Below, in pieces: positions 3,018 through 6,393 of a stretch of 50,495 bases of DNA. Source of the stretch: Chitinophagales bacterium (GTDB lineage Bacteria > Bacteroidota > Bacteroidia > Chitinophagales > JADIYW01); contig JADKZZ010000039.1 of the NCBI GenBank assembly GCA_020848475.1, positions 1 to 50,495 on the forward strand, in the 5' to 3' direction. Under the pieces are notes generated by a model, which did not search any database, was not told the DNA's origin, and saw only the letters and a list, made by a program, of their open reading frames with translations. Both the position numbers and the translations under genes were made by a program. Within the stretch, counting starts at the first letter, position 1; each line of letters opens with the position of its first letter.

Positions 3018-4874
3018 TTATATCAACTCGAAACTGCGTTTTACAAAGGTTGTCAAAGCTTCGCCTTTCAACATATTTTGTGACAGCAATGCTAAATCGT
3101 ACAATTGCTTAATGTGTTTCTGCTGATGTGTTTCCTCTTCTTCTAATATCTTAGCATTTATTGGATGATTGGTATTAATAACTAAGTTTAATTTCTCTTC
3201 CATATTGCCAAACATAAATGGCGAACCGCCACCCATTTTTTGCATTTCCTGCATACGACGCATAAACTCATTACGTGTAATAACGATTGGCGCATCTGTA
3301 GGCGACAATGCTTTTAATTCGATATCTGCTTTTGATTTTTCAATCGTTGTTTCAAACAAGCTTTTTAGTTTTTCTTCTTGTTCTTTTGATAAAACAGAAT
3401 CGGCATTTTCTTCTTTAGGAATTAAATTAGAAACGATATCAGCGTCCACGCGTTTGAACTGTGTTTTTTCGTTTTTCATTTCTACTTGTTGTATGAAATG
3501 ATTGTCAATCATCGTATCTAATTTTGCTACTTCATAGCTGCGTTCTTTTGCTTGTTCAATATAACTGTGTTGCTCTTCTTCATCAGAAGTATAAAGCACA
3601 ACCAAATTGCCATCTTTATCCGTTTGATTGACAGCAATTTTTTCTTTTAATTCTGCAAAGGTGTAGAATGTGTTTTCTGTTGTTGGAAATAAGGCAAAAC
3701 CATTACTTCTTTCATAAAATTTCTCATCACTAATCATTCCATATTTTACAAAAAGACCAATGTCGCTCCATTTTTCTTCAAATTGTTTTCTGTCGTTATT
3801 AAATATTTCTTGCAACTTATCCGAAACTTTTTTGGAAATATGTTGGTTGATTTTTTTCACGTTTGCATCGCTTTGCAAGTAAGAACGCGACACATTTAAA
3901 GGAATATCTGGCGAGTCAATTACGCCGTGCAACAAGGTCAAATATTCAGGAACAATTTCTCCAACATTATCCGTCACAAAAACTTGATTGCTGTATAATT
4001 GTATTTTATCTTTTTGAACTTCAAAATTCTTTTTCAATTTTGGAAAATATAAAATACCAGTTAAATTGAAAGGATAATCTACGTTTAGATGAATCCAAAA
4101 CAATGGTTCTTCAAAATTCATTGGATACAACTCGCGATAGAAGTTTTTATAATCTTCATCTGTTAAAGACGAAGGCGTTTTTGTCCAAGCAGGTTGTGTG
4201 TTATTTATGATTTCAGGCTCTTGAGGTTTTTCTGCTTTTTTGTCGTCCTCACTTTGCCATTTAAAACCAAACTGAATTGGAATTGGCAAGAATTTACAAT
4301 ATTTATTAAGAAGAGATTTTATGCGATGTTCTTCTAAAAATTCAACTGAATCTTCGGCAATATGTAAAATAATTTCTGAGCCGCGTTGTTCTTTTGTTAT
4401 TTCTTCTAAAGTAAATTCAGTAGAGCCGTCGCATGTCCATTTTACTGCTGGCTCATCTTTGTAAGATTTTGTGTTTATTTCTACTTTTTCAGCTACCATA
4501 AATGCAGAATAAAAACCGAGACCGAAATGTCCGATAATGGCATTGTTGTCTGTGTTTTTTAGTTTTTCTACAAACTCGCCAGCCGAAGAAAAAGCGATTT
4601 GGTTGATGTATTTTTTCACTTCATCAGCCGTCATGCCTAAGCCTTTGTCGGCGATTGTCAATGTCTTGTTTTCTTTATCGATAGAAATTTGGATAGTTAA
4701 ATCGCCGATATCGCCTTTAGCTTCGCCAAGTTGAGATAATCCTTTTAGTTTTTTGGTAGCATCTACCGCATTAGATACTAATTCGCGCAAAAATATTTCG
4801 TGGTCTGAGTATAAGAATTTTTTGATGATAGGAAAGATATTCTCGGTTTGTACATTAATTTTTCCAGTTTCCAT
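3018..4874 (-). CDS. htpG: Molecular chaperone HtpG (Hsp90)
   Basis: 618 aa, Hsp90 motifs: YSDHEIFLRELVSNAVDA, IADKGLGMTADEV, GHFGLGFYSAFMVA. Confidence 0.98.
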   Translation of the reverse strand: METGKINVQTENIFPIIKKFLYSDHEIFLRELVSNAVDATKKLKGLSQLGEAKGDIGDLTIQISIDKENKTLTIADKGLGMTADEVKKYINQIAFSSAGEFVEKLKNTDNNAIIGHFGLGFYSAFMVAEKVEINTKSYKDEPAVKWTCDGSTEFTLEEITKEQRGSEIILHIAEDSVEFLEEHRIKSLLNKYCKFLPIPIQFGFKWQSEDDKKAEKPQEPEIINNTQPAWTKTPSSLTDEDYKNFYRELYPMNFEEPLFWIHLNVDYPFNLTGILYFPKLKKNFEVQKDKIQLYSNQVFVTDNVGEIVPEYLTLLHGVIDSPDIPLNVSRSYLQSDANVKKINQHISKKVSDKLQEIFNNDRKQFEEKWSDIGLFVKYGMISDEKFYERSNGFALFPTTENTFYTFAELKEKIAVNQTDKDGNLVVLYTSDEEEQHSYIEQAKERSYEVAKLDTMIDNHFIQQVEMKNEKTQFKRVDADIVSNLIPKEENADSVLSKEQEEKLKSLFETTIEKSKADIELKALSPTDAPIVITRNEFMRRMQEMQKMGGGSPFMFGNMEEKLNLVINTNHPINAKILEEEETHQQKHIKQLYDLALLSQNMLKGEALTTFVKRSFELI

Positions 4875-5019
4875 TTTTATAGATGATTAGATTTTAAGAA
4901 ATGAGATTTGAGAAAAACAATTCAAAAGTTGTTCCAATGGAAAATAGCTGACAAGTTGGCATTTTTAACTAAATTTGAGCGTAATTTTAGCTTAATAAAA
5001 TGTAATTTTGTGGAAGATA

Positions 5020-5187
5020 ATGAACATGAGATACCTAAGCGAGGCACACAAAAAAAATTCAGAAGGAGCGATAAAGATGCTCTCAGAACGTATATTGCCC
5101 ATAGACTTCAACAAGGCATTGAAACAGCTAAAGAAGAATTCGAAAGACGGCAAATTCTCTTCAGCCACCACGAGCAAGAAGATTTAG
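5020..5187 (+). CDS. Small 55-aa ORF upstream of kinase-like gene (not in ORF track)
   Basis: Reads MNMRYLSEAHKKNSEGAIKMLSERILPIDFNKALKQLKKNSKDGKFSSATTSKKI* just downstream of a TAATTTTG (-7 type) element at 5003-5010; stop is 2 nt before the next ATG. Confidence 0.6.
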   Translation: MNMRYLSEAHKKNSEGAIKMLSERILPIDFNKALKQLKKNSKDGKFSSATTSKKI

Positions 5188-5189
5188 AA

Positions 5190-5681
5190 ATGAGAATTAT
5201 CTTTGATATTGCAAAAGATGAATCCATTTGGATTGATGATTTATATTTGTTGGGAAAGCCAACACTTGTTGGTGGACATGAGAATACATTGGCATTAGAT
5301 GATACAACAGGCTTTTTATATAAAAGCAATAATTTGTTTAATGCAAAATTTCTTGTTTCAAATCTTCTAAAACAAATTAATCTGCATAATGAACTATTTC
5401 CAGAAACATATTGTGAGCTTGTTGGTTTTACAGGATTTGACAATGGAAAATGCCATGCACCTTACATTGAAGTTATATACAAGCAACAATATGTAGATAA
5501 TGCAATACAAGCAACACCTATTGAAATTCGCGATTTTATGTTAGCGATCGGTTTTAAACAAATTGACGAAACAAGATATACAAACGATGTTATTATAGTT
5601 GCAGATCTTTATCCAAGAAATGTGTTAAAAGACATGCATGGATATATTTATGTTGTAGATGATATAGTTACTTTAGTGTGA
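5190..5681 (+). CDS. Polyvalent-protein-kinase-like protein (163 aa); track ORF 4908-5681 is probably over-extended
   Basis: ATG at 5190 in frame: MRIIFDIAKDESIWIDDLYLLGKPTLVGGHENTLALDDTTGFLYKSNNLFNAK... ending ADLYPRNVLKDMHGYIYVVDDIVTLV. The GGHENT, DLYPRNVL and VVDD pattern resembles the putative polyvalent protein kinase domain of Bacteroidota mobile elements. Confidence 0.6.
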   Translation: MRIIFDIAKDESIWIDDLYLLGKPTLVGGHENTLALDDTTGFLYKSNNLFNAKFLVSNLLKQINLHNELFPETYCELVGFTGFDNGKCHAPYIEVIYKQQYVDNAIQATPIEIRDFMLAIGFKQIDETRYTNDVIIVADLYPRNVLKDMHGYIYVVDDIVTLV

Positions 5682-5688
5682 AATAATA

Positions 5689-6393
5689 TCACTTCGGATT
5701 TGTACTCCAAATAGTAGCTTCAGGAATGAAACCAACATCGCGCAGCTCTAACATAGAAACTATTAGATGTGCAACATCTTGCGCTTCTAATTTGGTGTTG
5801 TTAAAGTCGCGTTTTGGCCTGCCAGAATTTATCACAAAGTTCGTTTGCACTTCGCTTGGATGTACCATCATCACCCGAATATTATAAGGTCTGAGTTCTT
5901 CACGCCAGCATTCCGTCATGCCACGCAATGCCCATTTTGAAGTGCTGTAAGCCGTACCGTTTTGATGTCCTTTCAATCCAGATGTTGAGGCCACATTGAT
6001 GATGTTGCCGTGTTGCTGATGAATGAAATATTTAGCACATTCTCTGCCACATAACATGGCGCCAGTTACATTTGTTTCTATGATGGCTTTAAATTTTTCG
6101 GTATCTATATTTTGCAACACATCAAAATATCCAAAGCCTGCATTATTGATTAAAACATCTAATCCATTGAGTTGCGCAATCGTGTTTTTCACCAATTTAA
6201 TGACATCATTTTCATTTGTTACATCACAAGCAATTGCAATAGCTCCAATTTCTTCGGCTGTTTTTTTTAGTGTTTTTTTATTGCGTCCACTGATTACCAC
6301 TTGTGCGCCTTTTTTAATCAGCATTTTTGCCGTTGCTAATCCAATACCTGAGCTGCCGCCTGTAATTAATATTTTGGCATTTTTAATTTTCAT
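5689..6393 (-). CDS. SDR family NAD(P)-dependent oxidoreductase
   Basis: ITGGSSGIG (TGxxxGIG), NNAG and YSTSKWAL (YxxxK) motifs. Confidence 0.95.
   Translation of the reverse strand: MKIKNAKILITGGSSGIGLATAKMLIKKGAQVVISGRNKKTLKKTAEEIGAIAIACDVTNENDVIKLVKNTIAQLNGLDVLINNAGFGYFDVLQNIDTEKFKAIIETNVTGAMLCGRECAKYFIHQQHGNIINVASTSGLKGHQNGTAYSTSKWALRGMTECWREELRPYNIRVMMVHPSEVQTNFVINSGRPKRDFNNTKLEAQDVAHLIVSMLELRDVGFIPEATIWSTNPK

Follow-up and report, generated by a model that had tools for sequence, protein, structure and literature searches.

A probable small gene nested out of frame within the N-terminal coding region of a Kinase-PolyVal gene in Bacteroidota

Introduction

How many genes lie between htpG and the neighbouring SDR gene in this Chitinophagales genome, and in which frames are they read? 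In the window (the whole 50,495-nucleotide stretch of DNA that was analysed) a single plus-strand unit separates the two. Mechanical calling gives one ORF of 257 aa, which begins at TTG 4908 and contains a PF18762 domain. The sequence-only reading had taken the N-terminus of this ORF to be artefactual and proposed instead an end-to-end dicistron, in which a hidden 55-aa ORF is followed by a polyvalent-type kinase starting at ATG 5190. The 55-aa ORF is indeed present, running from ATG 5020 to TAG 5185-5187, and is followed by AA and then by ATG 5190, 2 nt beyond its stop. Out-of-frame overlapping genes in bacteria are often doubted and the evidence for them is usually thin. The features discussed are as follows.

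3018-4874, minus strand: htpG, neighbour on one side of the kinase unit
4908-5009, plus strand: upstream part of the mechanical 257-aa ORF, non-coding as judged from in-frame stops in the congeners (L002 and L003)
5003-5010, plus strand: TAATTTTG, read from the sequence as a match to the Bacteroidota -7 promoter element TAnnTTTG
5010-5681, plus strand: kinase reading frame, GTG 5010 to TGA 5679-5681, 223 aa, from homology
5020-5187, plus strand: small gene in the +1 frame relative to the kinase, from conservation, coding constraint and AlphaFold2
about 5187/5190-5672, plus strand: Kinase-PolyVal domain (PF18762), from profile match, alignment and model
5689-6393, minus strand: SDR gene, neighbour on the other side of the kinase unit

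Results and discussion

The kinase and its relatives

Kinase-PolyVal (PF18762) is the kinase domain of polyvalent proteins (Iyer et al. 2017, PMC5512222); stand-alone versions from Bacteroidetes, and relatives from Verrucomicrobia and Chlamydia, have already been reported (PMC5512222). The window kinase matches the profile at 72-73 bits (E about 3.6e-20 to 5.9e-20) against a curated cut-off of 27 bits, which bears out the family named by the sequence-only reading and makes the protein a confident member by sequence. The active-site residues E91, Q159, D199 and N204 are invariant in the alignment (A7) and D217 nearly so; the D-x4-N motif (ADLYPRNVL) and the last Asp (VVDDI) are both retained. 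The chain stops just past this final Asp motif, having lost the C-terminal kinase subdomain, and covers the 160-position model as far as position 157. The predicted structure is confident from residue 20 on (mean pLDDT 88). Foldseek searches of the PDB with this model returned generic protein kinases at E of at least 0.006, and in a viral structure library its nearest relatives were phage polyvalent proteins. With at most 223 aa and one domain, the window gene is not itself a multi-domain polyvalent protein. The kinase queries found no relative among INPHARED phages and PLSDB plasmids (tblastn). Comparison by sequence with solved structures gave chance-level matches only, and PADLOC-DB gave no match for the window proteins and two chance-level matches among 31 kinases.

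Searching with the 223-aa kinase frame from GTG 5010 matched ten genome loci and two viral contigs. The kinase-frame alignment with the congeners spans residues 1-220, therefore the segment 5010-5189 is not an artefact. The supposed artefactual N-terminus thus divides in two: residues 1-34 of the mechanical ORF (4908-5009) are interrupted by stops in the congeners and can be discarded, whereas from 5010 onward homologues carry the same N-terminal frame. ATG 5190 is not conserved among the relatives. Upstream of the small ORF the kinase frame of L004, L005 and L009 lacks a start codon, and it begins at an ATG within that ORF; L005 and L009 tolerate kinase-frame stops upstream of that internal ATG. 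In the window the true kinase start is not certain, with GTG 5010 lying at the edge of the promoter element.

PF18762 matched 66 of 300 genomes in one relative genus, which a single sister match suggests is Flavobacterium. Together with six to eight loci from a phylum-wide search, the loci of this genus gave a set of 73. Exactly in the +1 frame, 72 of them (every stand-alone kinase sampled, 72/72) have an ORF of about 47-60 aa; the remaining locus, L105, is the polyvalent locus of L008. The number of distinct loci is 71, because L031 and L082 are the same place taken twice. Three weak or degenerate matches (L023, L024 and L039) were left out of the statistics; L024 overlaps the true locus L122, and L039 is a kinase remnant. 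In genome G119 (L022/L040) the small ORF sits directly 5′ of the C-terminal part only of a kinase, an apparent internal deletion.

The small gene

If the kinase frame alone coded, the +1 frame of the window would be open by chance with a probability of 0.37. The openness of the 55-aa ORF is therefore unremarkable by itself, and it is comparison that makes the gene real. The +1 frame encodes the motif M-[KR]-Y-L-T-E-A-H-K-x-N-S-E-x-A-x-K in the window and in L002-L007, L009 and L019; L008 conserves the motif but has no nearby ATG of its own, and the +1 frame of L010 is divergent. Translated in the small frame, the overlap is 66% identical between the window and L002; translated in the kinase frame, it is 42% identical. 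From these comparisons the 55-aa ORF is almost certainly a real gene, lying out of frame over the N-terminal coding region of the kinase. Its product is more likely to have 53 residues (from ATG 5026) than 55 (from ATG 5020), because orthologues begin at the codon equivalent to 5026.

The protein is basic, of about 50 aa, and is modelled as two helices (residues 8-23 and 30-41) with a loose tail (AlphaFold2 mean pLDDT 81). Two groups of small proteins can be distinguished. Profile comparison of the two (probability 82%, E=1.1e-5) supports a common origin, a match that falls short of proof. Nothing credible was found for the small protein in Pfam, NCBIfam, PHROGs or PADLOC, nor in INPHARED phages or PLSDB plasmids, and by sequence it is an undescribed family. 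We found no description of the nested gene in the literature; the word 'overlapping' is absent from the main text of PMC5512222. As a separate candidate, a conserved RNA was ruled out as the cause of the pattern by the lack of an Rfam match and by the protein-like wobble pattern.

Selection on both frames

Between the window and its congeners L002 and L003, the overlap has 21, 9 and 10 differences at kinase codon positions 1, 2 and 3, compared with 21, 13 and 43 in the region that encodes kinase only (Fisher p=0.002). In its substitutions the overlap follows the 55-aa frame. The same was seen on a tree of 49 intact loci, where parsimony changes per site at kinase positions 1, 2 and 3 were 7.4, 3.2 and 2.5 in the overlap and 5.2, 2.7 and 12.0 in the downstream, kinase-only part; for the third position the difference (12.0 against 2.5) has p=6e-17. 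Within the overlap, changes are fastest where the small frame has its wobble position. The 55-aa ORF is thus both conserved and under codon constraint.

The kinase frame is also held open. Kinase-frame stops occur in the overlap at 3 of 69 loci, whereas synonymous resampling of the small frame predicts 68.7 if the small gene alone coded; the same resampling gives the chance of an open kinase frame as 0.0000-0.0005 in each of the window, L002 and L003. The resampling treats codons as independent, and related loci are not independent of one another, thus these counts are guides and not exact probabilities. Taken as a comparison of sequences, the two patterns leave little doubt that selection has kept both frames across Bacteroidota. 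The prediction of a hidden small gene ahead of a polyvalent-type kinase is upheld, and the pair behaves as a unit.

Promoter and start signals

The TAATTTTG element that the sequence-only reading had placed ahead of the 55-aa ORF is found at 5003-5010 and fits the Bacteroidota -7 promoter. With the reported spacing of 4-5 nt between this element and the start site (PMC6847099), transcription is predicted to start at about 5015-5016; the small ORF would then have the first start codon of the transcript, and GTG 5010 would precede the transcript start. TAnnTTTG lies 23-29 nt 5′ of the small-ORF ATG in the window, L002, L003, L005, L006, L007 and L019, 25-32 nt before it in most of the 72 loci and no more than 45 nt upstream in 62 of them. 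At -3, -12 and -13 of the small ATG, A is found in 93, 94 and 90% of loci, and A at these positions favours initiation in F. johnsoniae (PMC6847099). Around the kinase ATG (at -7 or -19/-22) the context is T-rich, with T the usual base at -3. These contexts lead us to predict that more small protein than kinase is made. In sum, a small gene and an enzyme gene overlap on one strand behind one predicted promoter.

These signals bear on the dicistron proposed earlier, in which the kinase would start at ATG 5190 by re-initiation and the kinase frame at 5010-5189 would be untranslated. The 2-nt separation between the small stop and ATG 5190, the completeness of PF18762 from 5190 and the position of GTG 5010, inside the promoter element and ahead of the predicted transcription start, all speak for this arrangement. 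It would leave unexplained, however, why no stop interrupts the kinase frame of the window and its congeners across the overlap, an outcome that resampling rarely reaches, why the kinase N-terminus aligns with relatives and why ATG 5190 itself is not kept. We consider the arrangement improbable. Conservation of the kinase frame continues across the 55-aa ORF, and the genes therefore overlap in different frames instead of lying end to end.

Loss of the kinase

The small-protein profile matches 85 of the same 300 genomes in which the kinase profile matches 66. We read 21 loci that have no kinase or only what is left of it in the overlap region; for one of these, L124, loss is not certain because the locus ends at a contig edge. 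All 21 have an uninterrupted small ORF (L135 has GTG for ATG), and 16 of them have accumulated 1-7 kinase-frame stops in the overlap, compared with 3 of 69 loci with a kinase (Fisher p=7.5e-11). The solitary small ORFs retain a ratio of 2.4 between the rates at wobble and other positions, as in loci with a kinase. Of the 72 loci with a kinase, 22 (in 20 or 21 independent places) have a broken kinase frame; no small ORF is interrupted (0/72), though one has lost its start codon. Were breaks spread by length, the probability of zero in the small ORF would be about 0.003. Some kinase breaks could be assembly errors, but the breaks vary in kind and place. In both congeners the kinase has stops at differing codons and the small ORF is intact, at the same htpG-SDR site.

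Two further readings can be judged with these loci. One makes the +1 ORF a by-product of kinase conservation and no gene at all, and an open +1 frame is, as noted, not rare at single loci. The third-position substitution pattern, the conserved start context and the survival of an intact small ORF at loci with a broken or missing kinase all contradict it; the orphan loci refute it outright, and its probability is negligible. The other reading makes the small ORF the N-terminus of a fused small-kinase protein produced by programmed -1 frameshifting. The small frame does end in a Lys-rich, A-rich stretch in many relatives, and a shift of -1 would bring the two frames together; yet the kinase frame stays open 5′ of any shift site and has start codons of its own, long polyvalent ORFs are read through in the kinase frame with no shift, and small ORFs occur alone. 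This fusion is very improbable, and we reject it together with the by-product reading.

At six loci (L130, L131, L132, L135, L140 and L142) the solitary small gene adjoins a divergent helix-turn-helix-like gene of about 132 aa (MST..RNIGRNISRIRELRGMKQ...), which suggests one shared ancestral site. Genome G912 (L142 and L112) has two copies of the small gene at separate sites, one with a kinase and one without.

Phage polyvalent genes and genomic settings

In L006, L007, L008, L019 and L021 the small ORF is nested in a long polyvalent ORF of the kinase frame, and L006, L007, L008, L011 and L019 are long fused ORFs. The nested copies of L006, L007 and L019 have TAnnTTTG 29 nt 5′ of the small ATG. 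On the viral contig L019 the following gene appears portal-like, from its translation only. At L008 (4798-5130) the nested +1 frame is longer, about 100 aa from ATG 4825, beginning MSKKEETPRRPMTPAERS; the small protein may thus carry an extra N-terminal part there. L008 is on the same contig as L105 and the viral contig L015/L017/L018.

Other settings were identified by eye from translations. In L029, L045 and L066 the module, with its small ORF around 1376 of the oriented strand, lies between a hemC-like gene upstream and hemD/hemE-like genes downstream, a lone insertion within a heme-biosynthesis-like operon. In L061 (707-3217, oriented strand) a PIN-domain-like protein lies upstream and a HepT/MNT-like pair downstream, neighbours which resemble other toxin-antitoxin pairs.

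Proposed mechanism

Our preferred reading, to which we give a probability of roughly 0.55, is a compact module of promoter, small gene and kinase in which the small protein restrains the kinase. The TAnnTTTG promoter would drive the small gene, with both proteins encoded on one transcript. The small-gene ATG has an A-rich context of the kind that favours initiation in Bacteroidota, and the kinase would be read in the overlapping -1 frame from a start just before or inside the small ORF, depending on clade. The small, basic, two-helix protein would bind and restrain the PF18762 kinase as a partner of antitoxin or immunity type. The kinase would be the costly partner, phosphorylating cell proteins and repeatedly lost, and the small gene would be retained, possibly also protecting against the same kinase arriving in phage polyvalent proteins. 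Stand-alone chromosomal copies resemble the nested polyvalent segment living alone.

The toxin-type module suspected from the sequence at the outset fits the pattern of decay, with the kinase lost and the small gene kept. Repeated loss suggests that the kinase is costly, and since the small protein outlives it, we argue that the small protein is not the harmful partner. That it neutralises the kinase, as an antitoxin or immunity protein would, is a tentative proposal that we put at a little below even odds. Many known antitoxins are acidic; the basic character of the small protein counts against an antitoxin, and the lack of a convincing PADLOC match against the preferred reading as a whole. 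The position of GTG 5010 before the predicted transcription start counts against the preferred reading where the translation of the kinase N-terminus is concerned. The persistence of small genes long after kinase loss, with as many as 7 kinase-frame stops, is unexpected for a simple antitoxin to a linked toxin and suggests an independent role. The long persistence of solitary copies fits either immunity against incoming kinases or an independent regulator.

The small protein may accordingly have a cellular function of its own, for example as a small regulator, with the kinase acting on or with it, perhaps by phosphorylation, and with no toxin-antitoxin relation between them. The solitary small gene of about 20 kinase-less genomes, still evolving as a coding sequence, and the invariant Ser positions in the Flavobacterium-type family point this way. 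The patchy presence (85/300 genomes), the lone insertion among unrelated housekeeping genes and the occurrence inside phage polyvalent genes resemble a mobile conflict module, not a core regulator, and we regard an own function of this kind as the main rival, possible but less probable than restraint of the kinase. A more specific and rather unlikely form of the restraint reading is a mobile kinase-antidote module, the antidote encoded out of frame within the kinase coding sequence, with hosts keeping solitary antidotes against phage-delivered kinase. If this were true, capture or transfer of the kinase gene, or its fusion into a virion protein of a phage, would nearly always bring the antidote along.

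Conservation of the overlap extends across Bacteroidota, to chromosomes and phage polyvalent genes alike, and kinase loss serves as a natural control: stops accumulate in the kinase frame and the small gene survives whole. The kinases concerned, from phages and mobile elements, are poorly understood as a class; the overlap brings to them a protein family not described before and a testable guess as to how such kinases are restrained. Annotation pipelines that drop contained ORFs will tend to miss the small gene.

Comparison with known systems

In polyvalent proteins the Kinase-PolyVal domain is part of a multidomain chain, whereas the window gene stands alone. Type II toxin-antitoxin operons have a small gene first, a larger enzyme second, their own promoter and a patchy distribution. 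The module resembles them in gene order, in having its own promoter, in patchiness and in the decay of the enzyme while the small gene persists. It differs in that the whole small gene is overlapped out of frame and in that its protein is basic and unlike any described family, with toxicity and neutralisation both putative.

As a same-strand, out-of-frame overlap the locus shows coding constraint on both frames in the shared stretch. The nearest parallel is comS within srfA of Bacillus subtilis, a nested gene of the same kind (cited in PMC12350097), and the pairs are alike in that a larger gene contains, in a different frame, the code for a small protein. The comS and srfA products are described as functionally independent (PMC12350097). 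Unlike comS/srfA, the overlap seen in the window spans the N-terminus of a kinase, moves with that kinase through phages and chromosomes, and is backed by many loci and by cases in which the partner has been lost.
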